Positions 21,039 to 35,715 of a DNA stretch of 64,000 nucleotides are shown here, piece by piece. The DNA comes from Bradyrhizobium liaoningense. Lineage in GTDB: Bacteria; Pseudomonadota; Alphaproteobacteria; Rhizobiales; Xanthobacteraceae. The translations under genes were made by a program, and so were the position numbers. Location: positions 248,001-312,000 of the forward strand of contig NZ_JAFCJT010000001.1 of NCBI RefSeq assembly GCF_018130785.1, given 5' to 3'. A model generated the notes under the pieces. That model ran no database searches. It worked only from the letters and a program-made list of their open reading frames with translations, and was not told the origin of the DNA. How positions within the stretch are numbered: position 1 is the first letter of the stretch; the number at the start of each line of letters is the position of its first letter.

Positions 21039-22523
21039 TCAGACGGCCAGATTCATCCAGACAGCCTTGGGCTCGGTGAAATTGTCGAGCGCGGCGGTGC
21101 CGTGCTCACGGCCGAGGCCGGAGTCGCGCTCGCCGCCCCAGGGCAGACGCACGTCGGTGTAGCCATAGGTGTTCATCCAGACCGTGCCCGCCCGCGCCCG
21201 CTTGGCGAAGCGCTGGAGCTTGCCGACGTCGCGGCTCCAGACGCCGGCGGCGAGGCTGTAGGCCGTGCCGTTGGCGATCCTGAGCGCGTCGGCCTCGTCC
21301 TTGAACTTGATGACGCTGACGACGGGGCCGAATATCTCCTCCTGCGAGATCCGCATCTCGTGCGCGACGCCTGCGAACACCGCGGGGCTGATGAAATAGC
21401 CGCGATCTCCGACTTTCTCGCCACCGGTGACGAGGGTCGCGCCCTCCTTCTGGCCGATGTCGACATAGTCGAGGATCGACTTCATCTGCTTCTCGGAGAT
21501 GACGGGGCCGAGCGCCGTCTTGCGATCGAGCGGATCGCCGATTCTGAGCGACTTCGCGCGCGCGGCGAGACGCTCGACGACCTCGTCATAGGCCTTCTCC
21601 TGCACCAGCACCCGGGAGCCTGCCGAGCACACCTGACCCGCATTGAAGAAGATGCCGGAAGCCGCAGCCTTGGAGGCCGCTTCGAGATCGGCGTCATCGA
21701 AGATGACGTTGGCCGACTTGCCGCCGAGTTCGAGCGAGACGCGCTTGAAGTTGCTCGCCGCACCCTTCATGATTCCACGGCCGACGCCGGGCGAGCCGGT
21801 GAAGGTCACCTTGTCGACGTCGGGGTGATTGACCAGCGCGTCGCCGACGACACGGCCCGGCCCGGTGACGACGTTGAAGACGCCCGCCGGCAGGCCCGCT
21901 TCGAGTGCAAGCTCGGCAATGCGCAGCGCCGACAACGAGGTCAGCTCGGCCGGCTTCATCACGATGGTGCAGCCGCAGGCCAGCGCCGGCGCGAGCTTCC
22001 ACATGCCGATCATCAGCGGGAAATTCCACGGCACGATCGCTGCGACCACGCCGACCGGCTCACGCACGGTGTAGGTCAGCGCATCGTCGCGCACGGGCAC
22101 GACGTCTCCGCTGATCTTGTCGGCCCAGCCGGCGTAGTAGGTCAGCGTGTCGACCGCGGCCGGAAAATCCTGGCGCGTCGTCGCGGAGATCGGCTTGCCG
22201 GCGTCGATCGACTCGAGCTCGATGATTTCTTCGGCGTGCGCCTTGAGCAGGTCCGCCCAGCGCAGCAGGATCTGCCCCCGCTCGGAGGCGCGCATCGTGC
22301 GCCACGGGCCTTCGAACGCCCGGCGTGCGGCCGCGACTGCGTGCTCAACATCGGCCTCGCCGCCTTCGGCGACGACAGCGATGACCTGCCCGGTGGCGGG
22401 ATTGAGGGATTTGAAGGTACGGCCGGAGCTTGCGGGGACGCGGCGGCCGTCGATCAGCAGATGCTGCGGCCGGGCCATGAACTCGGCGGCCGGCGAATGC
22501 GCGAAGTCATATGCAACAGACAT
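21039..22523 (-). CDS. Aldehyde dehydrogenase family protein
   Basis: A 494-residue NAD(P)-dependent aldehyde dehydrogenase. Catalytic residues are Asn167 (VPWNFPL), Glu265 (LELGGKSANV) and Cys299 (FNAGQVCS), and the Rossmann motif FTGSPGVG is at 241-248. The nearest well-known relatives by pattern are betaine or aminobutyraldehyde-type enzymes, but the substrate is not assigned. The start is ATG 22523 (AGGAGG seven nucleotides upstream) or the adjacent ATG 22526. It is divergent from a ModE-like/PBP-like regulator across 113 nt that hold an 18-bp palindrome, and it ends in a strong terminator, so it is probably a single-gene unit under that regulator. Confidence 0.93.
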   Translation of the reverse strand: MSVAYDFAHSPAAEFMARPQHLLIDGRRVPASSGRTFKSLNPATGQVIAVVAEGGEADVEHAVAAARRAFEGPWRTMRASERGQILLRWADLLKAHAEEIIELESIDAGKPISATTRQDFPAAVDTLTYYAGWADKISGDVVPVRDDALTYTVREPVGVVAAIVPWNFPLMIGMWKLAPALACGCTIVMKPAELTSLSALRIAELALEAGLPAGVFNVVTGPGRVVGDALVNHPDVDKVTFTGSPGVGRGIMKGAASNFKRVSLELGGKSANVIFDDADLEAASKAAASGIFFNAGQVCSAGSRVLVQEKAYDEVVERLAARAKSLRIGDPLDRKTALGPVISEKQMKSILDYVDIGQKEGATLVTGGEKVGDRGYFISPAVFAGVAHEMRISQEEIFGPVVSVIKFKDEADALRIANGTAYSLAAGVWSRDVGKLQRFAKRARAGTVWMNTYGYTDVRLPWGGERDSGLGREHGTAALDNFTEPKAVWMNLAV

Positions 22524-22608
22524 CATATTTCCTCCTGTTCTGGTATGCCAGGATAGGCCGCGATTGGCTGGAGTAAATATGATATGATCTGCAAATGGAT
22601 GCCCTACA

Positions 22609-22626
22609 TATGAAGCGTAGTTCATA
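22609..22626. promoter_or_regulatory. Palindrome in the divergent promoter of regulator and aldehyde dehydrogenase
   Basis: TATGAA-GCGTAG-TTCATA: perfect 6-bp inverted arms with a 6-nt spacer, ending 10 nt before the regulator start at 22637. Nearby, 22578-22589 carries further TATGAT-like half sites. This is a candidate operator for autoregulation by the divergently encoded regulator and for control of the aldehyde dehydrogenase. It differs from the three Mo-box-like sites elsewhere in the window. Confidence 0.5.
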
Positions 22627-22636
22627 AGGTTTTCAG

Positions 22637-23719
22637 ATGCTTCAGATCGAGATCGAAGCCGTCTGGCGATTTCGCCACGAGGGCAGCCCGCGCACCGCAG
22701 TCGTCATGCTCGGCGTGCTCAACGAGATCCGGAAGACCGGAAAGATCACGAGCGCGGCCAGCGATGCGCACCTGTCCTACCGGCACGTCTGGAACCTGAT
22801 CGAGCAATGGTCGGAGTTCTTCGGAACTCCTCTGGTCGAAACCCAGCGCGGCAAGGGCTCAAAACTCACGCCGTTCGGCGAGCGGCTGGTGTGGGCCGGC
22901 GAGCGCATGCAGGCCCGGCTCGGCCCGCAGCTCGAAAACCTGGCGCAGGAGCTGGCGAGCGAGATCAAGCCGTTCCTCGAACAGCGCCCTTCGGTGATCC
23001 GCGTTCATGCCAGCCACGGCTTTGCCGTGGCAAAACTGCGCGAATTCCTCGATCGCGAGCCCGGCATCGGCGTCGACCTTCGCTATGTCAGCAACCAGCA
23101 TTCGCTGGTTGCGCTGGCGCAAGGCGCCTGCGATCTCTCGGGCCTGCATCTGCCGCACGGCGCGTTGCGCGCGCAAGGCATCAAGGCGGCACGCGAATGG
23201 CTGGATCCGCGCGAGGATCGCATCATCAGTTTCGTCACGCGCGAGATGGGGCTGATGGTCGCGCGCGGCAATCCGCTGCGCATCGCTTCGCTTCAGGATC
23301 TCACCGGGCCAAAAGTCCGCTTCGTCAACCGCGACCATGATTCCGGCACGCGGCTGTTGTTCGACCAGCTGCTTGCCGCGAACGGCATCGACGAGAGCAG
23401 GATCAACGGCGCGCAGCAGATCGAGTTCACCCACGCCGCGGTCGCTGCCTATGTCGCGAGCGGCATGGCGGATGCGAGCTTTGGCGTCGAGGCGGCCGCT
23501 CGCCACTTTGGCCTCGATTTCATCCGCATCCTCACCGAGGATTATTTCTTCGTCTGCAAGCGCGCGTTCCTCGATACCGGGCCGATGCAGCGCATCCTGG
23601 AGATCATGCGCAGCGCCGATTTCCGCGCCGCCGTCGCCACCCTGCCCGGCTACGTGCCGTCGGATACCGGCAACGTGACCGGCGTGAAGGCGTTTCTGGA
23701 GATGCACGCCGTGCGGTGA
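22637..23719 (+). CDS. ModE-like winged-helix regulator with C-terminal PBP-like ligand domain
   Basis: A 360-residue regulator. Residues about 25-85 form a LysR/ModE-type winged helix: VVMLGVLNEIRKTGKITSAA, then SYRHVWNLIEQW as the recognition helix, then GKGSKLTPFGERLV as the wing typical of ModE. Residues about 115-355 resemble a type 2 periplasmic-binding-protein fold (PF12727-like), with VRVHASHGFAVAKLREFL and an FVNRDHDSGTRLLFDQLL motif. Such proteins sense oxyanions or other small ligands. It is divergent from an aldehyde dehydrogenase. The ligand is unknown; molybdate, tungstate or a small organic acid are all possible. Confidence 0.85.
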   Translation: MLQIEIEAVWRFRHEGSPRTAVVMLGVLNEIRKTGKITSAASDAHLSYRHVWNLIEQWSEFFGTPLVETQRGKGSKLTPFGERLVWAGERMQARLGPQLENLAQELASEIKPFLEQRPSVIRVHASHGFAVAKLREFLDREPGIGVDLRYVSNQHSLVALAQGACDLSGLHLPHGALRAQGIKAAREWLDPREDRIISFVTREMGLMVARGNPLRIASLQDLTGPKVRFVNRDHDSGTRLLFDQLLAANGIDESRINGAQQIEFTHAAVAAYVASGMADASFGVEAAARHFGLDFIRILTEDYFFVCKRAFLDTGPMQRILEIMRSADFRAAVATLPGYVPSDTGNVTGVKAFLEMHAVR

Positions 23720-23790
23720 TGTCGCATGCCGCATGCAGGCCATGCGCACGGCAGATCCGGCCCGGAACCGTCTGGACGAGGCCCGGCGTT

Positions 23791-23814
23791 CGTTATATCT
23801 ATACAGATATAGCG
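23791..23814 (+). promoter_or_regulatory. Putative Mo-box (ModE/MopAB-type operator), site 1
   Basis: CGTTATAT, 8-nt spacer CTATACAG, ATATAGCG: an inverted repeat with seven of eight arm positions matching. The arrangement CGnTATAT-N8-ATATAnCG is the geometry described for ModE and for MopA/MopB of Rhodobacter. It lies 38 nt upstream of the amidotransferase start (23853), in the gap after the PBP-like regulator, so it could control the amidotransferase / aldehyde dehydrogenase / methyltransferase run. Two further copies are at 33520 and 33614. Confidence 0.65.
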
Positions 23815-23852
23815 GATACCGTCGAAAGACCCCGCGCAACAGGGTTTTGTGG

Positions 23853-24599
23853 ATGTTTCAACGCCGCCGGTCTGCCGTCGCGCTCCGTCACGTGGCCTTC
23901 GAGGATCTCGGCCTGCTGGCGCCGATCATGGAACGTGAGGGCTGGAACGTGTCGTTCTGCGAGGCGCCGGTCGACGATCTCAGCCATTGCTCGATTGGGG
24001 ATGCCGACCTGCTGATCGTGCTCGGCGGCCCGATCGGCGTCTACGAGACCCAGAGCTATCCGTTCCTCACAAGGGAAATTGATCTCCTGGAGCGCCGCCT
24101 TGCGCAGGGACTGCCGACACTCGGGATCTGTCTCGGCGCGCAGCTCATGGCGAAGGCGCTCGGCGCGCGCGTCTATGCCGGAGGTGTGAAGGAGATCGGC
24201 TGGGGATCGATAACATTGTCGGACGCAGGCCGTGCCTCCAGCCTGAAGCCGCTCGCCGAGGGCGCGCCGGTTCTGCACTGGCACGGCGACACGTTCGATC
24301 TCCCCGACAACGCCGCGCGACTCGCCTCGAACGAAAACTACGCGAACCAGGCATTTGCCTTTGGCAGCAACGCGCTCGCGCTCCAGTTTCATCTCGAGGC
24401 CGATCCGCGGCAGCTCGAGGAATGGTATGTCGGCCATGCCGTCGAGCTCGCGTCCGCCAGGATTTCGGTGCAGGAGCTTCGCGCCAGGACGGCCGAGGTC
24501 TCAAAGACCGTCGCACGCGCCGCCGACCGAGTGTTCACGACATGGCTCAGCCAGCTCGGCCAGGGAAACGCCGCTGGCAAAACCGCACAAGCAAGGTGA
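23853..24599 (+). CDS. Class I glutamine amidotransferase
   Basis: A 248-residue stand-alone GATase1 domain similar to the amidotransferase part of GMP synthase. It shows the nucleophile elbow GICLGAQ with Cys93, and LQFHLEADP with His180 and Glu182, completing the triad. The loop LIVLGGPIGVYE (54-65) is the usual oxyanion-side motif. The start MFQRRRSAVALRHV is chosen because the Mo-box-like operator lies upstream of it; a reading from 23733 would include the operator. It is followed 6 nt later by an aldehyde dehydrogenase. Possible roles are hydrolysis of gamma-glutamyl compounds or supplying ammonia; not determinable here. Confidence 0.88.
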   Translation: MFQRRRSAVALRHVAFEDLGLLAPIMEREGWNVSFCEAPVDDLSHCSIGDADLLIVLGGPIGVYETQSYPFLTREIDLLERRLAQGLPTLGICLGAQLMAKALGARVYAGGVKEIGWGSITLSDAGRASSLKPLAEGAPVLHWHGDTFDLPDNAARLASNENYANQAFAFGSNALALQFHLEADPRQLEEWYVGHAVELASARISVQELRARTAEVSKTVARAADRVFTTWLSQLGQGNAAGKTAQAR

Positions 24600-24605
24600 A
24601 GAACA

Positions 24606-26033
24606 ATGGCGGAATATCCTCTGATCGAACTCTACATCGACGGCCAATGGAAGCGCGCCAGCGGACAGCCGATCATCAATCCCGCCGACGAGAGCGTGCT
24701 GGGCACCGTCCCCACCGCCACCAGGGCCGATCTCGACAACGCACTCGCCGCCGCCGAGAAGGGCTTTGCGATCTGGCGCAGCACCGCGCCCGCCAAGCGC
24801 GCGCAGATCATCCTGAAGGCCGCTTCCCTCATCCGCGAACGCGTCGATGTGATGGCATCAGCAATGACGCTCGAACAGGGCAAGCCGATCGAACAGGCGC
24901 GGCTCGAAATCCTGCGCGGCTGCGACATCATCGAATGGGATGCCACCGAAGGCCTGCGCCTCTACGGCCGGGTGATCCCGAGCGAGCCCGGCATGCGCCA
25001 CACCGTGCTGCGGCAGCCGATCGGCCCGGTCGCGGCGTTCTCGCCGTGGAATTTCCCCATGAGCTCGCCGGCCCGAAAAGTGGCAGGCGCCCTCTCCGCC
25101 GGCTGCTCGATCATCCTCAAAGCCTCCGAAGAAACGCCAGCGGGCGCGTTCCAGCTGGTCCGCGCCTTCCATGACGCGGGTCTTCCGGCCGGCGTGCTCA
25201 ATCTCGTGTTCGGCAATCCCGCCGAGATCTCGGAATACCTCATTCCGCAATCGCGCATCCGCCTCGTCACCTTCACGGGCTCCATTCCCGTCGGCAAGCA
25301 TCTCGCGGAGATGGCCGGCCGCCACATGAAGCCCGCGATCATGGAGCTTGGCGGCCACGCGCCGGTAATCGTCTGCGACGACGTCGATCCCGTTGCGACC
25401 GGGGCCGCCTCTGCTATCGGCAAGTCGCGGAATGCGGGACAAGTCTGCGTCGCGCCGACGCGCTTCTTCGTGCAGGAAAAGATCTACGAGCAGTTCGCGC
25501 AATCCTTTGCCGAGCGCGCCAGCCAGCTGAAAGTCGGCAACGGCCTCGATCCCTCGACCCAGCTCGGGCCGCTGGCCAATGCACGCCGCATCGATGCCAT
25601 GGAGACGCTGGTTGCGGACGCCAAGGCCAAGGGCGCGCGCGTGCTCGCCGGCGGGCAGCGCATCGGCAATCGCGGCTATTTCTTTCCGCTCACCGTGCTC
25701 GCTGATCTGCCCGACGATGCCCGCGCCATGAACGAGGAGCCGTTCGGGCCGCTCGCGCTAGTCAATCCGGTCAAGACGCTGGATGAGGCGATCGAGAGGG
25801 CCAACGCCCTTCCCTACGGCCTTGCCGCCTACGCGTTCACGCGCTCGGCGAGCAATGCCGAGCGCCTCGCCGAGAGCGTCGAGGTCGGAAACCTCTCGAT
25901 CAACCATTTCGTCGCCTCCGTCGCGGAGACGCCGTTTGGCGGCGTGAAGGACAGCGGTTACGGGCGTGAAGGCGGCACCGAGGGCTTGCAGTGCTACACC
26001 GTCGTCAAGAACGTGTCGCATAAGACGCTGTAG
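24606..26033 (+). CDS. NAD(P)-dependent aldehyde dehydrogenase, succinate-semialdehyde type
   Basis: 475 residues with catalytic Asn149 (SPWNFPM), Glu247 (MELGGHAPVIV) and Cys281 (NAGQVCVAPTR). The ELGGHAP and QVCVAPTR motifs and the TLEQGKPIEQA segment are close to the GabD-like succinate-semialdehyde dehydrogenase group, though many such enzymes take other aldehydes. It follows the amidotransferase by 6 nt and precedes a methyltransferase by 8 nt, so the three form one transcript probably read from the Mo-box-like site at 23791. The pairing of amidotransferase and aldehyde dehydrogenase recalls gamma-glutamyl polyamine degradation (PuuD/PuuC), but no glutamyl-ligase is adjacent. Confidence 0.92.
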   Translation: MAEYPLIELYIDGQWKRASGQPIINPADESVLGTVPTATRADLDNALAAAEKGFAIWRSTAPAKRAQIILKAASLIRERVDVMASAMTLEQGKPIEQARLEILRGCDIIEWDATEGLRLYGRVIPSEPGMRHTVLRQPIGPVAAFSPWNFPMSSPARKVAGALSAGCSIILKASEETPAGAFQLVRAFHDAGLPAGVLNLVFGNPAEISEYLIPQSRIRLVTFTGSIPVGKHLAEMAGRHMKPAIMELGGHAPVIVCDDVDPVATGAASAIGKSRNAGQVCVAPTRFFVQEKIYEQFAQSFAERASQLKVGNGLDPSTQLGPLANARRIDAMETLVADAKAKGARVLAGGQRIGNRGYFFPLTVLADLPDDARAMNEEPFGPLALVNPVKTLDEAIERANALPYGLAAYAFTRSASNAERLAESVEVGNLSINHFVASVAETPFGGVKDSGYGREGGTEGLQCYTVVKNVSHKTL

Positions 26034-26041
26034 GATCGTTC

Positions 26042-26827
26042 ATGCAGGACGCCGCACCACGCCACCAGGACGGCAGCGCCGGCGACGCCAATTACGGCGC
26101 CATCGGCAAGGGCTACACGAATTTCCGCCGCCCGGACCCACGCATCGCCGAGCTGATCGACGCGGCGCTCAGCGAGGCCCGCACCATCCTCAATGTCGGC
26201 GCGGGCGCCGGCTCCTACGAGCCGGTCGGCCGCACCGTGACGCCGGTCGAGCCGTCGCAATCGATGCGGGCGCAGCGGCCGGCTCATCTTCCCGCGGCGA
26301 TCGATGCGGTCGCGGAGAAGCTGCCCTTCGAGGACGGCGCGTTTGGCGCCGCGATGTCGACCTTCTCGGTGCATCAGTGGAAGAACCTGAACGCCGGCCT
26401 CTCCGAGATGCGGCGGGTGACGCGCGGCCCGATCGCGATCATGACCTGCGCCCCCGACGAGCTCGATCGCTTCTGGCTCAACGCCTATTGCCCGGAGGTG
26501 ATCGCGGTCGAGGCTGTGCGCTATCCGGCAATCCGCGAGATCGCGGAAGGCCTCGGCGGCACAACGGATGTCCTGCCCGTCCCGATCCCGCTCGACTGCA
26601 CCGACGGCTTCAACGAGGCCTATTACGGCCGCCCCGAGATGCTGCTCGATCCGGCCGCGCGGCTCGCCTGCTCGGCCTGGAGCTTTGTTGCCGACGATGT
26701 GGTGCGGCGTTTCGAGGACCATCTCGGCAGCGATCTCGCATCCGGCCGGTGGGATGAACGGCACGGGCACTATCGGCGGCGTCCGACTTTCGTCGGCTCG
26801 CTCAAGCTGATCGTCAACCACATCTGA
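26042..26827 (+). CDS. Class I SAM-dependent methyltransferase
   Basis: A 261-residue methyltransferase with the SAM-binding motif ILNVGAGAGSYEP (about 46-58), the acidic strand VTPVEPSQ in place of a typical D/E-x, and a later LPFEDGAFGAAMS motif, the usual post-I/II pattern of UbiE-like methyltransferases. The C-terminal half shows SAWSFVADDVVRRFEDHL and no further domain. It is third in the run after the amidotransferase and aldehyde dehydrogenase (8-nt gap) and ends 14 nt from the convergent LuxR-type gene. Substrate unknown. Confidence 0.88.
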   Translation: MQDAAPRHQDGSAGDANYGAIGKGYTNFRRPDPRIAELIDAALSEARTILNVGAGAGSYEPVGRTVTPVEPSQSMRAQRPAHLPAAIDAVAEKLPFEDGAFGAAMSTFSVHQWKNLNAGLSEMRRVTRGPIAIMTCAPDELDRFWLNAYCPEVIAVEAVRYPAIREIAEGLGGTTDVLPVPIPLDCTDGFNEAYYGRPEMLLDPAARLACSAWSFVADDVVRRFEDHLGSDLASGRWDERHGHYRRRPTFVGSLKLIVNHI

Positions 26828-26841
26828 CCCGGCGCGGCACC

Positions 26842-27633
26842 TTATTGCCGAGCGCTCGGACTCAGCAGGCAGGCCGCAAGCTCGGTGCGGTTGTGCACGC
26901 CGAAGCGTCGGCACAGGTTCGCGACGTGTTCCTTCACGGTCTGATCGGAAATCCCCATCTCGCGGGCGATTTCCTTGTTGGTCTGGCCGCGGCAGACCCG
27001 GATGGCGACGTCCGCGGACCGTGGCGGAAGCGATGCCGAGAGCGTCGCCACCGGCGTCGCTGCCGGCTCGGGGACCCGGATTGCGGCAGGATGAGCGTCG
27101 ATCGCGCCCGCGTTCGTCATGTTGGTCAAAGCGAGCGAACCGGCCCGACACAGCATCTCCATGCGCTGCCGCGACCGCATCGTGTAGGGCGCGTCCGTAT
27201 CGGTCGTCGCCGTAAACAGCACGCCGACGATCTTCTGTCCGCACCACAACGGGCCGCCCATGTTGTATGCAAAGCCCCACTCGTGGAGCATCTCGAAGGA
27301 CGGACTGTGCCGCCATTGCTGCGGACCGATCACCGTTTCACCGTCGACCGCGCGGCCTTGGGTCATGATGCAGTCGAGCACGGGGTCGCGCTTCCAGAAG
27401 CCGGCCCTGTAATTGTCGAGCAGGCCTTCTGCGACGTGCCGGCTGTAGACCAGTTCCGGTTCAAGCCCATCGAGCAAATAGAGGCCGACGGTCGGCGATC
27501 CCGTCAATTCCGTGATCGCCGAGCAGCAGGCAATGCCAAGCGCGCGCACCGAGCGGCTCTCGGCGATGGACATCAGTCGATCTGCGAGCTGGCGCTCGGG
27601 CAGACCATCCAAATGCTCCCGCTCGGCTCTCAC
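26842..27633 (-). CDS. LuxR-type transcriptional regulator with N-terminal sensor domain
   Basis: A 263-residue regulator. Residues about 20-165 form a GAF/PAS-like or LuxR-sensor-like domain with many aromatic residues (WRHSPSFEMLHEWGFAYN, GGPLWCGQKIVGVLF). The C-terminal 60 residues are a LuxR/FixJ-type helix-turn-helix: VAIRVCRGQTNKEIAREMGI, then SDQTVKEHVANLCRRFGVHN. The start at GTG 27633 is supported by GAGGAG five nucleotides upstream; GTG 27654 is the longer alternative. It is divergent from the flavin-monooxygenase cluster and likely controls it. The intervening 421 nt contain a 15-bp palindrome. No quorum-sensing synthase is nearby, so the ligand is probably not an acyl-homoserine lactone made locally. 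Confidence 0.86.
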   Translation of the reverse strand: MRAEREHLDGLPERQLADRLMSIAESRSVRALGIACCSAITELTGSPTVGLYLLDGLEPELVYSRHVAEGLLDNYRAGFWKRDPVLDCIMTQGRAVDGETVIGPQQWRHSPSFEMLHEWGFAYNMGGPLWCGQKIVGVLFTATTDTDAPYTMRSRQRMEMLCRAGSLALTNMTNAGAIDAHPAAIRVPEPAATPVATLSASLPPRSADVAIRVCRGQTNKEIAREMGISDQTVKEHVANLCRRFGVHNRTELAACLLSPSARQ

Positions 27634-28054
27634 CGCCACTCCTCGCGCGAACACGGGGTGCCCTCGGACACACGCGCGTCATTGCCGATTGTTATAGGCT
27701 TAAAATTTCTGCCTCGCCTGATCTTTGGTCAAGCGAAAAGAAGCGGCAAGAAACTGCTCTCCCGGCCCAGCTTTGCGGCAGAGCAGCATGGCCAACACCC
27801 CCCATGATGGGGGATTGCTGTTTTGGCCGCCTCATCTCTAGCATCCCGGCCGTCGGGGATCGCGTAACGACGTTCGCGCGGTTCCGACGGGGACATCTCG
27901 ACACCAACGCGAGCCGTTCGTCGCGCGCACCAACAGTCATTGGCGCGTGTGGGCGGAGTCTTGCCCGCGACCGGTGTCTGTTCCGCCCGACCGAGATCTT
28001 CGCGTCCAGCAGCGTTGCGCGAAGAACCAACAGCCCGACGTGGAGACACCGACC
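27634..28054. other. 421-nt divergent control region of the flavin-monooxygenase cluster
   Basis: Lies between the LuxR-type gene (minus) and the monooxygenase gene (plus). It includes an AT-richer stretch at about 27690-27715 and a G/C palindrome at 27799-27813. In-frame extensions of the monooxygenase back to 27947 look non-coding. No other gene is supported. Confidence 0.55.
27799..27813. promoter_or_regulatory. 15-bp palindrome, candidate LuxR-type operator
   Basis: CCCCCATGATGGGGG is a perfect palindrome around a central G (7-bp arms), sitting in the middle of the region between the LuxR-type regulator and the monooxygenase gene. The size and symmetry fit a dimeric LuxR/FixJ helix-turn-helix protein. 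It is 241 nt upstream of the monooxygenase start and about 165 nt upstream of the regulator start, so a shared or activator-type role is likely. Confidence 0.5.
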
Positions 28055-29287
28055 ATGAGCCCTTCCGTGCAACTCGCCGTAAAACCTTCCGCGACCCCGA
28101 CGGTGGCCGAGTTCCATGCGCGCCTCGACGCGCTGCTACCGCTGGTCGAATCCAGAGCCGCGGAGGCCGAGGCACAGGGCTATCTGACTGACGACGTGGT
28201 GGCGGCGCTGCGCAAGGCCGGCATCTACACCATGCTGTTCCCGAAGGAGGTCGGCGGCGCCGAGCTTCTGCCTTACGACGCCATGACCGTGATCGAGCGG
28301 CTCGCTTACGCACACGCCTCCGCCGGCTGGTGCGTCATCGGCAACAACATGGAAGGCACGACGCTCGCCATCTACATCGAGGACGAAGGCATCAAGAAAG
28401 TCTTCGCGGGCGGGCCCGACATCACGATTGCCGGCAACGGCGTGCCGCGCGGCTTCGCCCGACCGGTCGATGGCGGTTACATGATCCGCGGCAACTGGGC
28501 CTATGGCAGCGGCATTCAGCACGCCGAGTGGGTCCATTCAGGCTGCTTCGTCACCGACGCATCCGGCAAGGACATGGTGTTTGGCCCGAACGGCCAGCCC
28601 AAGATCGTCGTCACCCATCATCCGCGCGCGACCATCAAATTGATGGGCAATTGGGACGTGCTCGGCCTGCGCGCGACGGGAAGTTTCGACTACACTTTGA
28701 GCGAGGGCGACGAGTTGTTCGTGCCCACGCACATGACCTACGATTTTGACATTGGCGCGCCGCGCCGAGGTGGTGTGCAGGGTGCACTGGGGCTGGCGGG
28801 CTACAGCGCCTGGGCGCATTCCGCTTGGGCCGTCGGTGTCGGCCGCCGCATGCTCGACGAACTCGTCAAGGTGATCGTCCAGCGCCAGGATCCATTCGGC
28901 AAGTCGCGCGACAGCGCGAGCTTCAAGTTCCAGTTCGCGCAGGCCGAAGCTCGTTTCCGCGCAGCACGTGCATTGGTCCACGAAACCTGGAAGGACGTCT
29001 CGGAGACTTGCGCCCGCGGTGAAAGTCCGTCGCTGGAGCAGATGACGATGATCAAGCTGTCATTGCGCCACGTCCACGACGTTCTGTCGGATGTCGCGAC
29101 CTTCGCGCATCGTGCCGCCCGCGGTGCCTCGCTGCACAACACGCCGATGCAGCGGTTTTATCGCGACATCCATTCGGGCACGCAGCACATCCTGATGGCC
29201 GACCAGATCGTCGAAGAGTGCGGTCGCGCGCTGCTCGGCCTCCCCGGCCCTGGTGCGCAATGGACGGTCTTCGGGGTGACGGGCTGA
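28055..29287 (+). CDS. Acyl-CoA-dehydrogenase-fold flavin-dependent monooxygenase
   Basis: 410 residues with the acyl-CoA dehydrogenase layout: helical N-terminus (VAALRKAGIYTMLFPKEVGGAEL), a beta middle domain (WDVLGLRATGSFDYTL) and a C-terminal helical domain (QFAQAEARFRAARALVHETW, RDIHSGTQHILMADQIVEECGRALLG). The IHSGTQH segment and absence of the acyl-CoA dehydrogenase catalytic Glu pattern fit the HsaA/DszC/HpaB-like two-component monooxygenases that use reduced flavin. The adjacent flavin reductase gene supports this. The start MSPSVQLAVKP at 28055 is taken; the upstream in-frame stretch looks non-coding. The substrate may be an aromatic or sulfur compound. Confidence 0.85.
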   Translation: MSPSVQLAVKPSATPTVAEFHARLDALLPLVESRAAEAEAQGYLTDDVVAALRKAGIYTMLFPKEVGGAELLPYDAMTVIERLAYAHASAGWCVIGNNMEGTTLAIYIEDEGIKKVFAGGPDITIAGNGVPRGFARPVDGGYMIRGNWAYGSGIQHAEWVHSGCFVTDASGKDMVFGPNGQPKIVVTHHPRATIKLMGNWDVLGLRATGSFDYTLSEGDELFVPTHMTYDFDIGAPRRGGVQGALGLAGYSAWAHSAWAVGVGRRMLDELVKVIVQRQDPFGKSRDSASFKFQFAQAEARFRAARALVHETWKDVSETCARGESPSLEQMTMIKLSLRHVHDVLSDVATFAHRAARGASLHNTPMQRFYRDIHSGTQHILMADQIVEECGRALLGLPGPGAQWTVFGVTG

Positions 29288-29315
29288 GCAAGCGACCAGA
29301 CACGAGGGCGTCGAG

Positions 29316-29864
29316 GTGAGGACATCCCGCATCGTTGGTTTCTGCGGCAATAGTTGGCGCCCGGCGAAGTCGCGCATGCTGGTGGAAGCCGTCGCCGCCG
29401 ATCTTCAGGCGCAGCATGGACTGAAGACCACCGTCCTCGACCTTGTCGACGCCGGTTGCGGCATCGCCGGCTTCACCCGGACCGCACTCGATGACAATGC
29501 GCGCGCCGTCGTCGAGGCCATCGAACAGGCCGACGGCCTCGTGATCGGATGCCCGGTGTTCCAGGGCTCTTATCCCGGATTGTTCAAGCACCTATTCGAC
29601 TTGATCGAACCCAGCGTGCTGCGCAATCGCCCGGTGCTGCTTACCGCGGTCGGCGGCGGCCTGCGCCACTCGCTGGTGGTCGAGCACCAGCTCCGCCCGC
29701 TGTTCGGCTTCTTCGAAGCCTGCACCGTTTCGACGGCGATCTACGCCAGCAGCGGCGAGATCGTACCGGGCGAACCGCTCGCACCAATGACGGCCGCGCG
29801 GCTCGCCAACGCCGTCGAACAATTCGCCTCACTTCTCAGCGGTCGCCAGGAGGCCGCCGCATGA
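29316..29864 (+). CDS. NAD(P)H-dependent FMN reductase (MsuE/SsuE-like)
   Basis: A 182-residue flavodoxin-fold reductase. The phosphate-binding loop GFCGNSWRPAKSR (8-20) and the middle motif VIGCPVFQGSYPGLFKHLFDL are typical of the NADPH-dependent FMN reductase family that supplies reduced flavin to two-component monooxygenases. It starts at GTG 29316 (MRTSRIVGFCG) and lies 28 nt after the monooxygenase gene, so it is most likely its electron donor. The second half includes VGGGLRHSLVVEHQLRPLF, as seen in MsuE-like proteins. Confidence 0.9.
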   Translation: MRTSRIVGFCGNSWRPAKSRMLVEAVAADLQAQHGLKTTVLDLVDAGCGIAGFTRTALDDNARAVVEAIEQADGLVIGCPVFQGSYPGLFKHLFDLIEPSVLRNRPVLLTAVGGGLRHSLVVEHQLRPLFGFFEACTVSTAIYASSGEIVPGEPLAPMTAARLANAVEQFASLLSGRQEAAA

Positions 29865-29906
29865 CTCACCAACGCCCGGCCCTGCCGCCTTCAACCGGAG
29901 ATGACC

Positions 29907-30707
29907 ATGCTTGATACCGTCAAACCCTCGCCGGATCTGACCGGCTTCTCCCGCGCGGAATATGCGATCAACCACGTGCGGACCATCGTCCACAGCATCG
30001 GAAGCGGCCCGGCGCTGGTGTTCCTACACGGCACCGGCACCTTCACCGGCTTCGAGATGGCGCGCGAATGGGCGAAGCGGCACACGGTCATCATCCCCTA
30101 TCATGCGGGCTTTGGCGACTCCGGCGACGCCGAGACGATCGACACCGTCGAGGATCACGTCCTTCACTACATGGATCTGTTCGACAAGCTAGGCCTTGAG
30201 CAGTTCGACCTCGCCGGGTTCTCGCTCGGCGGATGGCTTGCCGCAGAGTTCGCGATCCGTCAGCCGCATCGGGTCCGTAAGCTGGTGCTGGTTGCTCCCG
30301 CCGGTCTTGTGGTCGGAAGCGCGCCTGCGCCCGGGTTGTTTGAGATCGCACCGCATGAACTGCCAGCCTATCTCGCGCACGATCCGGCCGCGGCACTCCG
30401 TTACTTTCCCAAGGCGCCCGATCCGGCCTTCGATGCCCAGCTCGGACGCGAGGTGACGGGCTTTGCCAAGCTGATCCGCAGCGAACCGCAGGGCAATCCC
30501 AAGCTCGCGCACTGGCTGCATCGGATCACGATGCCGACGCTGGTGCTGTGGGGAGCCGCGGATCGCCTGCGCCCGACCGCCCAGGCAGATGCCTGGAAAA
30601 CAGGGCTCCCCGACGCACGCGTGACGCTGGTGCCTGCGACCGGTCATCTCGTGTTCGAGGAAACGCCGTCTTCTGCACACTACGTCACCGATTTTCTCGC
30701 CGATTGA
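29907..30707 (+). CDS. Alpha/beta hydrolase
   Basis: A 266-residue alpha/beta hydrolase with the oxyanion region VFLHGTGTFTGFEMA, the nucleophile elbow GFSLGG, a late Asp in LWGAADRLRPTA and His in ATGHLVFEE, i.e. a complete Ser-Asp-His triad. The pattern is close to carbon-carbon bond hydrolases and carboxylesterases found in aromatic degradation clusters. The start MLDTVKPSPD at 29907 has GGAG six nucleotides upstream; ATG 29901 is too close to that site. It lies between the flavin reductase and cupin genes and would act on the monooxygenase product. Confidence 0.87.
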   Translation: MLDTVKPSPDLTGFSRAEYAINHVRTIVHSIGSGPALVFLHGTGTFTGFEMAREWAKRHTVIIPYHAGFGDSGDAETIDTVEDHVLHYMDLFDKLGLEQFDLAGFSLGGWLAAEFAIRQPHRVRKLVLVAPAGLVVGSAPAPGLFEIAPHELPAYLAHDPAAALRYFPKAPDPAFDAQLGREVTGFAKLIRSEPQGNPKLAHWLHRITMPTLVLWGAADRLRPTAQADAWKTGLPDARVTLVPATGHLVFEETPSSAHYVTDFLAD

Positions 30708-30732
30708 TCCGCACACAACAGAGGACACCACC

Positions 30733-31176
30733 ATGATCGAGATGCCTCCGGGCGTGACCCCTGCCAAAGAAGGCTTTGGCAACGTCATCTGGAACATTCT
30801 GGGCCAGACCTACACGCTGAAGCAGCATTCCGAGGCGTCGATGGCCTGGCATGCCGTGTTTCCGGATGGCACCTTCGTGCCGCCGCACGTGCATCCGACC
30901 CAGGATGAATTCGTCTATGTGCTGAGCGGCCGCTACGACCTCTGGCTCGATGGCAAGGACTTTGTCGCCAAGGCCGGCGACCTCGTCCGCATGCCCAAGG
31001 GCATCCCCCACGGCATTTTCAACAAGTCGGGTGAAACCGCCACCAGCCTGTTCTGGGTCGCACCGACGCGGTCGCTGAAAGAGCTGTTCGAGCGCATCCA
31101 CAATCTCCCCGATCCGCAGGAGGTCGTGCGACGTGCCGCCGAACACGAGGTCAACTTCCTGCCGCCGCCCGCCTGA
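30733..31176 (+). CDS. Cupin domain-containing protein
   Basis: A 147-residue single-domain cupin. Metal ligands are visible: His52 and His54 in PPHVHP, Glu59 in QDEFVYVLSG, and His93 in GIPHGIFN, giving the usual 3-His, 1-Glu site. The surrounding order (monooxygenase, flavin reductase, hydrolase, cupin, transporter) suggests a dioxygenase, isomerase or decarboxylase step in a degradation route, but the activity is unknown. It is preceded by GAGGACACCACC and spaced 25 nt from the hydrolase. Confidence 0.87.
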   Translation: MIEMPPGVTPAKEGFGNVIWNILGQTYTLKQHSEASMAWHAVFPDGTFVPPHVHPTQDEFVYVLSGRYDLWLDGKDFVAKAGDLVRMPKGIPHGIFNKSGETATSLFWVAPTRSLKELFERIHNLPDPQEVVRRAAEHEVNFLPPPA

Positions 31177-31216
31177 GGCCACGCCGATTCCGTCGACACT
31201 CAAACCGCGAGAACCG

Positions 31217-32506
31217 ATGATGACATTGCTGACAACAACTTGGACGTCCATCTCCGAGAACGACCGCCGTCGGATAGCCCGTTGGCAAAAAGGCATGCTG
31301 GCGCTCGCCATCCTCTGCGAGATCTTTCTCGCCGCCGACTGGTATGCCTTCGCGGCCGTACTGCCCTTCGTCTCCGAGAGCCTCAAGCTCAATCCCGCCG
31401 AGGCAGGACTCGCCCAAGGCATCTTTGCGCTGACCTACGGCATCGGCATGGTCGTCTGGTCGCCGGTCAGCCGGTCGATGACGGCGCGCAACATGCTGCT
31501 GATCGGGCTTGCGGGCACTGGTATCGGCATGGTGCTCCAGGTGTTCGTGCAAAGTTACACACAGCTCGTGATGCTCCGGCTCGTGATCGGCTTCTTCGAC
31601 GCCGGCATCTTCATCGGCAACATGAAGCTGATCTTCGACTGGTTTCCGCAAAGTCGGCGCGGCTCGGTGGTAGGCATCATCCTCGCCGCCTACAGCCTCG
31701 CCATCACCATGGATTTCGCGCTCGGCATTCCCCTGACGATTGCGACCGGTTGGCGGACCTTCTTCGCCGTGCTGGCGATCGGCACCCTGTTCGTCGCGGC
31801 GGTCGACGCGCTCGTCGTCCGTAACAATCCGCGCGAGCTTGGCATCGACGGTTTTACCTGGGGCAATGAAACACCTCAGGAGCACCTGCCGCTCGGCGAG
31901 ATCTTCCGCTCGAAATGGATCGCGGTCGCCGGCTTCGGCATCGTGGCCTGCACCTTTGCGATCGCCGGCACCGCCACCTGGGTGGTGCCGGCCTTCATCA
32001 GTGTACAGCACATGCCGCCGGAAGCCGGCGCTGTCATCGGCACCGTCATGGGGTTGTCGCAGGTGCTATTCCTGGTGATTGGCGGCTACATGTCCGATCG
32101 GCTCGGCAAGCCCTTCATGATCAAGCTCACCGCATGTCTCGCTTTCCTGACCGCGCTGATGTTCCTGTGGAGCGTGGTCACACCGATGTCGTTCGCGATG
32201 CTGGTGCTGTTTGCAGCACTCAGCGGTATCGCGCTGCTCGGCGGCGGCGCTATCTTCGCTCTGCTCAGCGAAAAATACTCCGGCGCGCTCGCACCGGCCG
32301 CGATTGGATACGCCGAGGTATTTGGCATCTTCTCGGCCTTCGTGGCGCCCTGGATGATGGGCGCCATCATCAACGCCTCGGCCGGCTCGTTCACCGGCGC
32401 CTTCATTGCTTTCGCGGTGGTCGAGCTCATCATCGTCGGCCTTTTGATGATCCTCGCCCGCGAGGACGTCAGTCAGGGTGCGGTGATCGGAAGCCCCGCG
32501 GAATAA
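31217..32506 (+). CDS. MFS transporter
   Basis: A 429-residue major facilitator with 12 predicted membrane helices and the usual 6+6 layout; the cytoplasmic loops carry SRSMTARNML between helices 2 and 3 and a second-half GGYMSDRLGKPF motif (motif A-like). The start is one of two adjacent ATGs (31217 or 31220); an in-frame upstream extension to 31133 overlaps the cupin gene and is rejected. As the last gene of the monooxygenase cluster it probably imports the substrate or exports a product. Specificity cannot be read from sequence. Confidence 0.9.
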   Translation: MMTLLTTTWTSISENDRRRIARWQKGMLALAILCEIFLAADWYAFAAVLPFVSESLKLNPAEAGLAQGIFALTYGIGMVVWSPVSRSMTARNMLLIGLAGTGIGMVLQVFVQSYTQLVMLRLVIGFFDAGIFIGNMKLIFDWFPQSRRGSVVGIILAAYSLAITMDFALGIPLTIATGWRTFFAVLAIGTLFVAAVDALVVRNNPRELGIDGFTWGNETPQEHLPLGEIFRSKWIAVAGFGIVACTFAIAGTATWVVPAFISVQHMPPEAGAVIGTVMGLSQVLFLVIGGYMSDRLGKPFMIKLTACLAFLTALMFLWSVVTPMSFAMLVLFAALSGIALLGGGAIFALLSEKYSGALAPAAIGYAEVFGIFSAFVAPWMMGAIINASAGSFTGAFIAFAVVELIIVGLLMILAREDVSQGAVIGSPAE

Positions 32507-32652
32507 GATGCAGCGATCACGGGCACGGGGCTGAAACCCGTGCCCTGAAGACGTCGACAAAGGTCCATCTTTTGGGAAATCAGGCGCCCTCACCTTGTCC
32601 GCGGCGGGCAAGAGTGGCAATCTCGCATGCAAGTACCCCAAGAGACCCCATC

Positions 32653-33027
32653 ATGTCGCGCGCGAGCGCCAAATCCCTCCCCCAGCTGAGCCTTCGCATC
32701 GACCTCGACGGCGAGGATCGGATCGGGCCCGGCAAGATCGAGCTTCTGGAGCAGATCCGCGAGCACGGCTCGATCTCGGGGGCCGGCCGGGCCATGGACA
32801 TGTCCTACAAGCGCGCCTGGGATCTGGTCGACGAGATCAACCGCATCTGCGGACATGCCGCGGTCGAGCCGCAGGCCGGCGGCAAGAACGGCGGCGGCGC
32901 CATGCTGACCCCGTTCGGCGAGAAACTTGTTGCGCGCTACCGCAAGATCGAGCGCGATGCCGCGCGCGCCGTGCACAAGGAGCTCGAAGCGCTCAAGAGC
33001 GACATCGCCCGTTCCCGGAAATCGTGA
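32653..33027 (+). CDS. Single-domain ModE-like winged-helix regulator
   Basis: A 124-residue DNA-binding protein. The segment IGPGKIELLEQIREHGSISG followed by AGRAMDMSYKRAWDLVDEIN matches the N-terminal DNA-binding domain of ModE, including the GGGAMLTPFGEKLVARYRKIE wing and helix. The two C-terminal molybdate-binding Mop/TOBE domains of E. coli ModE are absent. It therefore may sense molybdate through a partner, or respond by another mechanism. It lies 146 nt after the MFS gene, before the gene with a Mo-box-like site at 33520, and is the best candidate to bind the Mo-boxes in this window. Confidence 0.88.
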   Translation: MSRASAKSLPQLSLRIDLDGEDRIGPGKIELLEQIREHGSISGAGRAMDMSYKRAWDLVDEINRICGHAAVEPQAGGKNGGGAMLTPFGEKLVARYRKIERDAARAVHKELEALKSDIARSRKS

Positions 33028-33120
33028 GCGCGCGTGCGCATGGACGAACCTCTGCTCATTCGGCCCGCTTTGCCCGCCGATCTGCCGCCGCGGGTGGAAG
33101 CAGGCGACTGACGCCGCCGC

Positions 33121-33498
33121 CTAGTTCGGCCGCACCGACATTTCCGGCATCGGCCGGGTCAGCGCTTCGCCGAGCAGGCTTTGCTCGTCCCTGGGGATCG
33201 CAAAGCGGACCTTGAAGCCGTCCTCGGTCTGGAGCGTGATGATGCGCTGGGTGGTGTCGGTCGACTGCTCGATCGCCCAGGACGCCAGCGGATAGGCGTA
33301 GCGTAGGCTCTGGTCGCCGTAGCGGGCCTTCAGCGCCGCCTCGAGCAGCCCGGGCAGCGTCATGATGAGGGCGCCGACCTGGTTGAGCGAGACGCTGACC
33401 GCGGCGGGGTTGCCCGCCAGATCCTCGAAGCCCAGCGAGATCGCACCGCCGTCGGCAGCCACCTCGCAGGTCGTGAGCTGCCTCACCTTGATTTCCAT
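33121..33498 (-). CDS. Uncharacterised 125-residue protein under a Mo-box-like site
   Basis: Starts MEIKVRQLTTCEVAADGGAI. No recognised domain, no signal peptide and no membrane segment; the centre has LVGALIMTLPGLLEAALKARY-like hydrophobic helices (about 42-62) and the C-terminus is charged. It is convergent with the ModE-like gene (93-nt gap) and divergent from the aldehyde dehydrogenase at 33678. A Mo-box-like site (33520-33543) lies 21 nt upstream of its start. The start at 33498 is used because an upstream ATG at 33531 would put the start codon inside the palindrome. Confidence 0.65.
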   Translation of the reverse strand: MEIKVRQLTTCEVAADGGAISLGFEDLAGNPAAVSVSLNQVGALIMTLPGLLEAALKARYGDQSLRYAYPLASWAIEQSTDTTQRIITLQTEDGFKVRFAIPRDEQSLLGEALTRPMPEMSVRPN

Positions 33499-33519
33499 CG
33501 CCAGTCCCGGAACGCAATT

Positions 33520-33543
33520 CGCTATATCCATCACGATATATCG
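33520..33543 (-). promoter_or_regulatory. Putative Mo-box, site 2
   Basis: CGCTATAT, 8-nt spacer CCATCACG, ATATATCG. The arms match at seven of eight positions as an inverted repeat and keep the CGnTATAT-N8-ATATnnCG spacing. It lies 21 nt upstream of the minus-strand orphan gene start, a position suitable for repression, and in the same divergent region as site 3. Confidence 0.65.
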
Positions 33544-33582
33544 ATATGTCCATCTGCCCAGCCCTGCTTTTCTGGAATTGAT

Positions 33583-33606
33583 CGAACCGGCCGCATGGCC
33601 GGTTCG
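33583..33606. promoter_or_regulatory. 10-bp-arm palindrome between the two Mo-box-like sites
   Basis: CGAACCGGCC and GGCCGGTTCG, perfect 10-bp arms with a 4-nt GCAT loop, midway between Mo-box-like sites 2 and 3. It could be an operator for another regulator or a structured RNA hairpin in the leader of either transcript. No T-run follows, so it is not a typical intrinsic terminator. Confidence 0.45.
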
Positions 33607-33613
33607 GCGGAAG

Positions 33614-33637
33614 CGTGATATATAGTTCGATATAACG
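33614..33637 (+). promoter_or_regulatory. Putative Mo-box, site 3
   Basis: CGTGATAT, 8-nt spacer ATAGTTCG, ATATAACG. Arms match at seven of eight positions, with the same spacing as sites 1 and 2; the right arm ATATAACG is the exact consensus half of the Rhodobacter Mo-box. It lies 40 nt upstream of the aldehyde dehydrogenase start (33678), where a regulator could overlap the promoter. Confidence 0.65.
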
Positions 33638-33677: not shown

Positions 33678-35087
33678 ATGAGCGACTACAATCTTCTCAT
33701 CGACGGCAAGATGGTGCCCGGCGACCAGACCATGCCGGTTCTCAATCCCGCGACCGAAGAGGTGCTGGCGCAGTGTCCGCGTGCCTCGAAGGCGCAGCTC
33801 GATGCCGCCGTCGCCGCAGCGAAGGCCGCCTTCCCGGCCTGGGCCGCGACCCCGATGGCGGAACGTCGCAAGCTCGTGAACAAGATGGCCGACGTCATCG
33901 AGGCCAATTCGGGCGAGCTCGCCCACATCCTCACCAGCGAGCAAGGCAAGCCGCTCGGCGACGCCACCGGCGAAGTTTTGGGGATGGCCGCGTTCTTCCG
34001 CTACCTCAGCTCGCTCGAATTGCCGATGAAGGTGATCGAGGATTCCGGCGACCGCAAGGTGGAAGCCTATCGCCGCCCGCTCGGCGTCGTCGGCGCCATC
34101 ATCCCCTGGAACTATCCGCTGCTGATCCTCAGCTTCAAGCTGCCGTCGGCGCTGCTCGCCGGCAACACGCTGGTGGTGAAGCCGGCGCCGACCACGCCGC
34201 TTGCGACCTTGCGCTTCGCCGAGCTGATCAAGGACGTCCTGCCAAAGGGGGTTCTCAACTTCATCACCGACGCCAACGATCTCGGCGGCGAGATGACCAA
34301 GCATCCCGACATCCGCAAGATCTCCTTCACCGGCTCCTCCGCCACGGGGCAGAAGGTGATGGCGAGCGCAGCGCAGACGCTCAAGCGCATCACGCTGGAG
34401 CTCGGCGGCAACGACGCCGGCATCGTGCTCGACGACGTCGACCCGAATAAGGTCGCCCCCGGCATCTTCGAGGGCGCGTTTCAGAACTCCGGCCAGGTCT
34501 GCCTCGCCATCAAGCGGCTCTATGTCCATGAGTCCGTCTATGACGAGCTCTGCAACGAGCTGGTCGCGATCGCCAAGAGCACGGTGGTCGACGACGGCGC
34601 CAAGCAGGGCACCAAGCTCGGGCCGCTTCAGAACAGGATGCAGTACGAGAAGGTGAAGACGTTCCTCGAGGACGCCCGCAAGAACGGCAAGGTGGTCGCG
34701 GGCGGCTCCGCGATGGATCGGCCCGGCTATTTCATCGAGCCGACCATCGTGCGCGACATCCAGGAAGGATCGAAGCTGGTCGACGAAGAGCAGTTCGGCC
34801 CCGTGCTGCCGCTGATCAAATACTCCGACAAGAACGACGCGATCCGCCGCGCCAATGCCACGACCTATGGTCTCGGCGCGTCGGTCTGGTCGTCCGACGT
34901 CAAGCGCGCGCACGAAGTCGCGACCCAGCTCGAGTCCGGCACGGTCTGGATCAACAAGCATCTCGACATGGCCCCGCACATCCCGTTCGGCGGCGCCAAG
35001 CAGTCGGGCATCGGCACCGAATTCGCCGAGGAAGGCCTCGCCGAATTCACCCAGCTCCAGATCATCAACGGGCCGCCGGCGGCCTGA
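33678..35087 (+). CDS. Aldehyde dehydrogenase family protein
   Basis: A 469-residue NAD(P)-dependent aldehyde dehydrogenase with Asn145 (IPWNYPL), Glu241 (LELGGNDAGIV) and Cys275 (QNSGQVCLA), and FTGSSATG at 217-224. The start has GGGAGCG about eight nucleotides upstream. A Mo-box-like site 40 nt upstream and a ModE-like gene nearby suggest molybdate-linked control. It is followed 67 nt later by a DUF2478 gene on the same strand. The substrate is not assigned; the motif ELGGNDAGIV differs slightly from the succinate-semialdehyde group seen at 24606. Confidence 0.92.
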   Translation: MSDYNLLIDGKMVPGDQTMPVLNPATEEVLAQCPRASKAQLDAAVAAAKAAFPAWAATPMAERRKLVNKMADVIEANSGELAHILTSEQGKPLGDATGEVLGMAAFFRYLSSLELPMKVIEDSGDRKVEAYRRPLGVVGAIIPWNYPLLILSFKLPSALLAGNTLVVKPAPTTPLATLRFAELIKDVLPKGVLNFITDANDLGGEMTKHPDIRKISFTGSSATGQKVMASAAQTLKRITLELGGNDAGIVLDDVDPNKVAPGIFEGAFQNSGQVCLAIKRLYVHESVYDELCNELVAIAKSTVVDDGAKQGTKLGPLQNRMQYEKVKTFLEDARKNGKVVAGGSAMDRPGYFIEPTIVRDIQEGSKLVDEEQFGPVLPLIKYSDKNDAIRRANATTYGLGASVWSSDVKRAHEVATQLESGTVWINKHLDMAPHIPFGGAKQSGIGTEFAEEGLAEFTQLQIINGPPAA

Positions 35088-35154: not shown

Positions 35155-35715
35155 ATGTTCGATGCGCAATGCGACCTCGCCGCCCTCGTCTACCAACCGC
35201 ATCAGGACCCCGACGCGGTCCTGCGCAGCTTCGCGGCGGATCTGAATGCGCGCGGCTTCCGCGTCGTCGGCATGGTTCAGGCCGGCCAATGCGCGGACTC
35301 GAGCCTGTCGGCGGTGCTGCTTCACAACGGCGAGACGCTTCTGCTCGCGCAGGATTTCGATCCGGCCGCGCGCGGCTGCCGTCTCGATCTCGCGCGGCTG
35401 CAAAATGCCGGGATGCGGATCACGGACGCCCTCTCGCATGGCGCCGATCTCGTTGTCATCAACCGCTTCGGCAAGCGCGAACGCGACGGCAAGGGCCTGT
35501 CCCAGCTGATCAAACGCGCGCTCAATGCCGACATTCCCGTGGTGATCGCGGTTGGCAGAGACCATTTCGCCGACTGGATCAAGTTCGCCGGCGGCATGAG
35601 CGTCAGGCTCGGATGCGAGCGCGAGGCGTTGGAGGCGTGGTGGCGGAGCATCTCCACAAGCAACGCGCGGCGTGACGTCGGATCACATCCTACGGTGTGC
35701 GAAATTCTGAAGTGA
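35155..35715 (+). CDS. DUF2478 domain-containing protein
   Basis: A 186-residue soluble protein starting MFDAQCDLAALVYQPHQDPD, preceded by GGAGGCGG. It fits DUF2478, with LNARGFRVVGMVQ (about 31-43), a central ADLVVINRFGKRERDGKGLSQLI and IPVVIAVGRDHFADWIKFAGG. From memory, members of this family are frequently encoded next to molybdate-transport or ModE genes, although no function has been established. Here the location after a Mo-box-like aldehyde dehydrogenase unit supports that link. There is no classical P-loop despite the NTPase-like look of the fold. Confidence 0.82.
   Translation: MFDAQCDLAALVYQPHQDPDAVLRSFAADLNARGFRVVGMVQAGQCADSSLSAVLLHNGETLLLAQDFDPAARGCRLDLARLQNAGMRITDALSHGADLVVINRFGKRERDGKGLSQLIKRALNADIPVVIAVGRDHFADWIKFAGGMSVRLGCEREALEAWWRSISTSNARRDVGSHPTVCEILK

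Follow-up and report, generated by a model that had tools for sequence, protein, structure and literature searches.

Conserved Mo-box-like palindromes, with a one-domain ModE as their probable reader, upstream of genes for molybdenum-free aldehyde dehydrogenases in Bradyrhizobium liaoningense

Introduction

ModE has so far been known for its part in molybdate uptake, molybdoenzymes and alternative nitrogenases. The Escherichia coli ModE consensus is published, in a passage of PMC2700814, as ATCGCTATATANNNNNNTATATAACGAT, and passages of two papers on Rhodobacter capsulatus describe ModE-like proteins that repress at Mo-boxes under molybdate (PMC6925177, PMC7294313), among their targets the molybdenum-free Fe-nitrogenase, which is repressed at Mo-boxes and released when molybdenum (Mo) is short (PMC6925177). 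In this study, three Mo-box-like palindromes were investigated in a stretch of 64,000 nucleotides from Bradyrhizobium liaoningense (positions 248,001 to 312,000 of contig NZ_JAFCJT010000001.1), which is called the window throughout. The original prediction, made from the letters of this DNA, had read them as ModE operators in front of aldehyde dehydrogenase genes; its observation of three operator-like sites is confirmed here, and its interpretation is partly supported.

The locus is like the E. coli ModE regulon in the 24-bp core, arms and spacing of the consensus and in a ModE-type DNA-binding domain, but unlike it in that the regulator has no Mop domains, and in that the targets are aldehyde dehydrogenases, a run headed by a class I glutamine amidotransferase (GATase) and an orphan gene, while its own modABC operon is unboxed. 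With the R. capsulatus MopA/MopB regulon (mopA-modABC, morAB, anfA), so far as passages of the sources describe it, the locus would share Mo-box control that releases a Mo-free isoenzyme, which is proposed here; it differs from that regulon in having aldehyde dehydrogenases as its Mo-free enzymes and a one-domain regulator. A single domain is also what the candidate regulator (the short ModE) has in common with the one-domain ModE 2IJL, to which it aligns over 112 residues with 98 bits. We take the organism of 2IJL to be Agrobacterium tumefaciens. A paper on Agrobacterium, to go by its title, reportedly links molybdate uptake to cofactor status, and its ModE is said to have one domain.

Results

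Form and specificity of the three sites

A pattern check of the window showed that the three sites (Table 1) have no mismatch to CGNNATAT-N8-ATATNNCG, that is, CGnnATAT-N8-ATATnnCG, a 24-bp inverted repeat, exactly where and in the form in which they had been predicted. A recount gave 7 complementary positions out of 8 for the arms of each site, as claimed, and the predicted distance of 21 to 40 nt to three start codons agrees with the gaps from box end to start codon of 38 nt for the GATase (ATG 23853), 21 nt for the orphan (ATG 33498, minus strand) and 40 nt for the aldehyde dehydrogenase ALDH3 (ATG 33678). The ModE geometry attributed to them was also upheld, as a scan of both window strands with the 24-bp core of the E. 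coli consensus reached at least 14 of 18 positions only at the three sites (16, 15 and 15). T4 and A21 are both present in the sites at 23791 and 33520, and the site at 33614 has A21 only.

Table 1. Coordinates of the boxes, the candidate promoter element and the genes discussed, in window positions
Feature	Position	Strand	Remark
Mo-box 1	23791..23814	+	exact pattern match; before GATase-ALDH2-methyltransferase run
Mo-box 2	33520..33543	-	before orphan gene
Mo-box 3	33614..33637	+	before ALDH3
CTGGAC, candidate -35	23772..23777	+	16 nt before TATATC
TATATC, candidate -10 within Mo-box 1 left arm	23794..23799	+	suggested by spacing to CTGGAC
Aldehyde dehydrogenase ALDH1	21039..22526	-	PF00171; divergent from ModE-PBP, without box
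ModE-PBP (HTH plus PBP_like)	22637..23719	+	PF12727 and HTH_1
Class I glutamine amidotransferase (GATase)	23853..24599	+	PF00117; NCBIfam PRK07053, 328 bits (cut-off 250)
Aldehyde dehydrogenase ALDH2	24606..26033	+	PF00171; best NCBIfam model SSADH, below cut-off
Methyltransferase	26042..26827	+	PF08241
Short one-domain ModE, 124 residues	32653..33027	+	TIGR00637, 94 bits (cut-off 98.5); 2IJL and 1B9M matches
Orphan gene, 125 residues	33121..33498	-	gene most often behind a box
Aldehyde dehydrogenase ALDH3	33678..35087	+	PF00171; best PDB match 8YEN, aldehyde dehydrogenase family protein, 507 bits
DUF2478 protein	35155..35715	+	PF10649, 160 bits; downstream of ALDH3

When up to two mismatches were allowed, the window contained 4 pattern matches against 0.82 expected, and the host genome (8.30 Mb) contained 172 against 57 with the reversed pattern. 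In the genome-wide pattern scan, which had been proposed as a check, the window trio are the sole exact matches, and all lie within 10 kb of the best-scoring ModE-domain gene of that genome. Many random matches inside genes had been named beforehand as a result that would speak against operators; there are only three exact sites, and of the 8 one-mismatch sites 7 fall inside called genes. Across 148 genomes of the family we recorded 130 exact sites in 66 genomes, compared with 3 matches of the reversed pattern, and across 194 genomes of the genus 188 exact sites in 78 genomes, compared with 38. Among 29 first-listed family sites, 13 were inside called genes, including all 9 that have neither T4 nor A21; 16 of the 20 sites with T4 or A21 were intergenic against none of those 9, which indicates that the pattern by itself is not strict enough and that the TATAT arm is important.

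Conservation at orthologous promoters

For the conservation analysis, 61 named loci, mostly of Bradyrhizobium, were gathered via the orphan alignment, and a promoter was counted as boxed if a site with no more than one mismatch was detected between -200 and +30 of the start codon. Conservation in relatives, which had been suggested as a check, was found: such a box precedes the orphan in 54 of 58 named loci, ALDH3 in 32 of 32 and the GATase in 6 of 13, in the last case at 34-39 nt. These orphan and ALDH3 counts overlap, as the two genes have a common divergent promoter region. Boxes were observed less often before ALDH2 (2/9) and the DUF2478 gene (4/32), and none was detected in this interval before ModE-PBP (0/21), ALDH1 (0/21), the short ModE (0/44), AraC (0/15) or the methyltransferase (0/9). 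As a control, 118 of 6000 random 230-mers from the named loci contained a site by this mismatch limit, the true sites included. Four loci lack such a box at the orphan: L254, L262 (Bosea, with two mismatches in the site at 14 nt), and L264 and L265, which have four mismatches in the site at 15 nt.

Taken alone, the orphan-proximal site, 8-36 nt from the start, was counted in 54 loci, after 7 of the 61 had been set aside as partial or distant: 51 have it with no more than one mismatch, 1 has it with two mismatches and 2 are without it. The ALDH3-proximal site, at most 75 nt from the start, is exact in 26 of 32, has one mismatch in 2 and two in 1, and is absent from 3. Of 22 distinct regions upstream of the GATase, 15 also contain a box with no more than one mismatch. 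The footprint over 51 distinct orphan promoters gives 1.94 bits for the specified arm positions, a value raised slightly because the rows were preselected at one mismatch or fewer (51 of 54 passed), against 0.54 for the 8-bp centre and 0.64 and 0.40 for the flanks.

Two ModE-like proteins

With the ModE-domain model, the host genome yielded the short ModE at 94 bits, ModE-PBP at 48 and four more matches at 27 or less, none of them above the cut-off of 98.5. The short ModE aligns with E. coli ModE 1B9M as well as with 2IJL, and the three have in common an SYK-AWD and a GGK-GGGA stretch, which we take for the putative recognition helix and wing; the glycine-rich wing stretch is missing from ModE-PBP. 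A Pfam scan of the short ModE gave HTH_1 only, itself below the Pfam cut-off. On these alignments and the Pfam scan, the protein is assigned to the one-domain (2IJL-type) class and is not classed as an E. coli-type ModE.

The co-occurrence of these genes with the sites was compiled by hand for the 194 genus genomes, counting orphan fragments at contig ends and excluding distant paralogues and two ModE-PBP fragments. Of these genomes, 114 have the short ModE and 99 have ModE-PBP; the orphan was found in 71, in 70 of them together with the short ModE. Among the 78 site-bearing genomes, 75 have the short ModE and 63 have ModE-PBP. The likely reader of the three boxes is, to judge from these comparisons, the short ModE and not ModE-PBP.

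An inverted repeat of another form, TATGAA-N6-TTCATA, was noticed at 22609-22626 between ALDH1 and ModE-PBP. By eye, this repeat and the upstream GTAAATATGATAT block are kept in most of 33 aligned upstream regions (one of them truncated), and the repeat is a candidate operator of ModE-PBP itself.

Boxes and their genes in relatives

The loci of relatives described here were picked for having sites, and therefore they show association and give no rate. A genome of another genus (G081) has four exact sites in 10 kb together with ALDH3, the orphan, DUF2478, the short ModE, the GATase and a ModA-like protein. An exact box stands before its GATase (L175), another lies by the GATase start in L192 (G108), and none was found for the GATase genes of L279 and L280. 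In L180, two boxes precede a WtpA-like protein whose operon includes a short ModE; the names ModA-like and WtpA-like rest on NCBIfam matches below cut-off. Boxes were also found before TonB-receptor-like genes, about 300 nt before nifH in one case, and, again in G081 (L187), before an aldehyde dehydrogenase adjoining moeA, mobA and mobB. By eye, this last aldehyde dehydrogenase is interrupted by an apparent transposase gene.

Order-wide, the orphan is present in 9 of 297 genomes, 5 of which are outside the family, and in three of these five (L274, L276, L278) an exact box stands immediately before it. Near the boxed orphan of L274 are genes for Mop, FecCD and a periplasmic binding protein as well as TonB-like genes; in L276 the box lies between the orphan and an aldehyde dehydrogenase that is itself followed by short ModE; and in L278 the neighbours are the short ModE, DUF2478, the GATase, LysR and a metal-free NAD formate dehydrogenase. 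Distant orphan paralogues of 33-34% identity, arranged as divergent pairs, were seen in L281 and L283, with no box within two mismatches.

Two further protein families were observed behind boxes. A conserved protein of 93 residues, one member of which was scanned with no Pfam match, has a box 101-103 nt upstream in L164, L165 and L167, and a relative with a one-mismatch box is encoded in L182, the stretch that follows the nifH of L178 and precedes ALDH3. A 334-residue SMP-30-like protein, whose Pfam match is below cut-off, is preceded by a box at 112-124 nt in L161, L162 and L217, and in L161 and L162 the entire 24-bp box is identical, centre included.

A promoter element at the boxes

A conserved CTGGAC was detected 16-19 nt before the TATATC or TATATT of the box left arm, as counted on examples. 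Of the regions with a box, 60 of 71 for the orphan and 13 of 15 for the GATase contain it in the more general form CT[GTA]GAC, 5-26 nt before the box, against a background of 0.8% of 21-mers; it was not found in the few boxed regions of DUF2478, the 93-residue protein, TonB, SMP-30-like or WtpA-like genes. The -35 elements of Alphaproteobacteria read CTTGAC, and for this reason CTGGAC is read as a putative -35 element. The matching -10 of the orphan and GATase promoters would then fall within the box, in the position where a repressor would sit.

Boxed genes and their neighbours in the window

The enzymes behind the boxes had been predicted not to be molybdoenzymes, and the Pfam families of the GATase, ALDH2, ALDH3 and the methyltransferase (Table 1) agree with this. 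Among the 25 best NCBIfam models for each of ALDH2 and ALDH3, none scored above cut-off. A longer GATase frame that would cover Mo-box 1 is disfavoured, since the PRK07053 alignment begins at residue 6 of the frame that starts at 23853. The neighbourhood of ALDH3 and DUF2478 recurs in the loci of relatives.

No match of the orphan was obtained in Pfam or NCBIfam, and its alignment of 37 sequences has a mean column identity of 71%. The AlphaFold2 model (mean pLDDT 75, pTM 0.46) displays beta-beta-beta-alpha twice. Foldseek returned no match to it at E 0.001 or below, the weak rows including Pur-alpha, ModG and the Mop part of E. coli ModE (TM-scores 0.19-0.27), and in VIA-align the best Z-score was 6.2, for Rtt106, with ModG at 3.5; these matches are too weak for a fold assignment.

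Between the two boxed units lies a cassette (26842-32506) with a LuxR-type regulator, an HsaA-like monooxygenase, an FMN reductase, a hydrolase, a cupin and an MFS transporter, of which LuxR, the FMN reductase, the hydrolase and the cupin were named by eye. Four named loci carry genes of this cassette and L200 has most of it, whereas it is missing from compact relatives such as L110, L124 and L170.

Molybdenum enzymes and formate dehydrogenase

About 20 Mo-hydroxylase large-subunit genes were counted in the host genome on a reading of 27 domain matches, in which some genes are represented twice. A protein identified by Pfam, NCBIfam and PDB as a metal-free NAD formate dehydrogenase is present in 38 of 291 family genomes. 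Over about 1.5 kb upstream, 30 of its loci gave one exact box (G037), one with one mismatch (G018), one with two mismatches and 27 with none, and as the reversed pattern with up to two mismatches occurs in 5 of 30, only the exact G037 box stands out. Outside the family, G432 has a two-mismatch box before LysR and formate dehydrogenase. As a general target of the boxes this enzyme has mostly failed, and it remains a lead only.

Discussion

We consider it probable that the palindromes are Mo-boxes of the one-domain ModE repressor encoded at 32653-33027, with repression when Mo or the finished Mo cofactor is plentiful. The short ModE would then sit on the boxes and block the promoters, and when Mo is scarce, the orphan, ALDH3 with the DUF2478 protein, and the GATase-ALDH2-methyltransferase run would be made. 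ModE binding, repression as its sign and molybdenum as its signal are all inferred. The position of the boxes before Mo-free aldehyde dehydrogenases suggests that Mo-free enzymes are switched in when the metal is short. With less assurance, we propose that these NAD-dependent aldehyde dehydrogenases stand in for Mo-dependent aldehyde oxidation, a substitution that fits because aldehyde enzymes recur behind the boxes and the host has many Mo-hydroxylase genes. A Mo-sparing regulon spread over the bacterial order, in which aldehyde dehydrogenases replace Mo hydroxylases and, in a few relatives, a metal-free NAD formate dehydrogenase replaces the Mo-dependent one, comparable to the exchange of Mo-nitrogenase for Fe-nitrogenase in other bacteria, is a tentative extension of this reading, and the orphan is perhaps a partner or feedback part of the one-domain ModE within such a regulon.

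Several observations weigh against control by a Mo-responsive short ModE. According to Pfam, neither the short ModE nor ModE-PBP has the molybdate-binding Mop/TOBE domain of E. coli ModE, so that direct molybdate sensing by the regulator is not supported. The host modABC operon (L201) has no box within three mismatches, and hence no uptake gene of the host genome is visibly controlled; in Bradyrhizobium, modABC is placed under NifA in a passage of PMC4999443. In the co-occurrence table, 39 of the 114 genomes with the short ModE have no exact site and 3 site-bearing genomes have no short ModE, and these counts are not independent, as the genomes are related. To these are added the low share of boxed GATase genes among the named loci and the lack of a box at the orphan in two of the five orphan genomes outside the family (L275, L277). 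With regard to the promoter, CT[GTA]GAC precedes the box in only 1 of 45 ALDH3 regions, it is degenerate (CTGGGC) before the window orphan, being intact (CTGGAC) before the window GATase, and no promoter was detected at the boxes when they were scanned for the sigma-70 consensus.

The first two of these points also feed the strongest alternative, namely that the short ModE reads the boxes but its signal is no longer Mo, the protein acting as a local regulator of aldehyde metabolism under another signal. The absence of a sensor domain and of a box at the host modABC agrees with this, as does the clustering of all three exact genomic sites around the regulator, within a single stretch of 10 kb. 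Nevertheless, boxes in relatives lie by ModA-like, WtpA-like, TonB-like, Mop/FecCD and nifH genes, and the Agrobacterium work is said to tie molybdate uptake to cofactor status; we therefore regard this alternative as unlikely, though it keeps some weight. Far less probable is that ModE-PBP binds the sites. In its favour, 71 nt separate the end of the ModE-PBP gene from Mo-box 1, and the protein matches the ModE domain weakly (45.6 bits) and is present in 63 of the 78 site-bearing genomes; against this, no site is carried by any of the 21 genus genomes in which ModE-PBP occurs without the short ModE, and 12 of the 36 with the short ModE and no complete ModE-PBP do have one, its own promoter is boxed in none of 21 loci and conserves the other inverted repeat instead, and it is without the glycine-rich wing common to the short ModE and E. 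coli ModE. ModE-PBP was accordingly rejected as the box reader, and of the two ModE-like proteins originally put forward as regulators, the one at 32653 tracks the sites and the one at 22637 does not. That the similarity arises by chance or from a constraint other than a ModE operator is hardly credible, for although the loose pattern falls inside genes in 13 of 29 family sites and the reversed pattern turns up 38 times in the genus, the exact sites are unique in the genome, stand out from the controls and are conserved at fixed places.

Most likely, then, these are real, conserved Mo-boxes which, with a one-domain ModE, stand before Mo-free aldehyde enzymes and constitute a variant of the ModE regulon. 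It is called a variant because control of uptake was not encountered in the host, though the boxes of L180 adjoin a WtpA-like operon. Among titles and abstract openings, where the word 'mode' added noise, ModE control of such aldehyde dehydrogenases was not found, which is weak evidence of absence. If the proposed control by the short ModE is true, the exchange of isoenzymes according to metal supply would extend to the oxidative metabolism of soil and nodule bacteria, the orphan family and DUF2478 would gain a biological setting, and the manner in which a sensor-less ModE reads Mo status would become testable.

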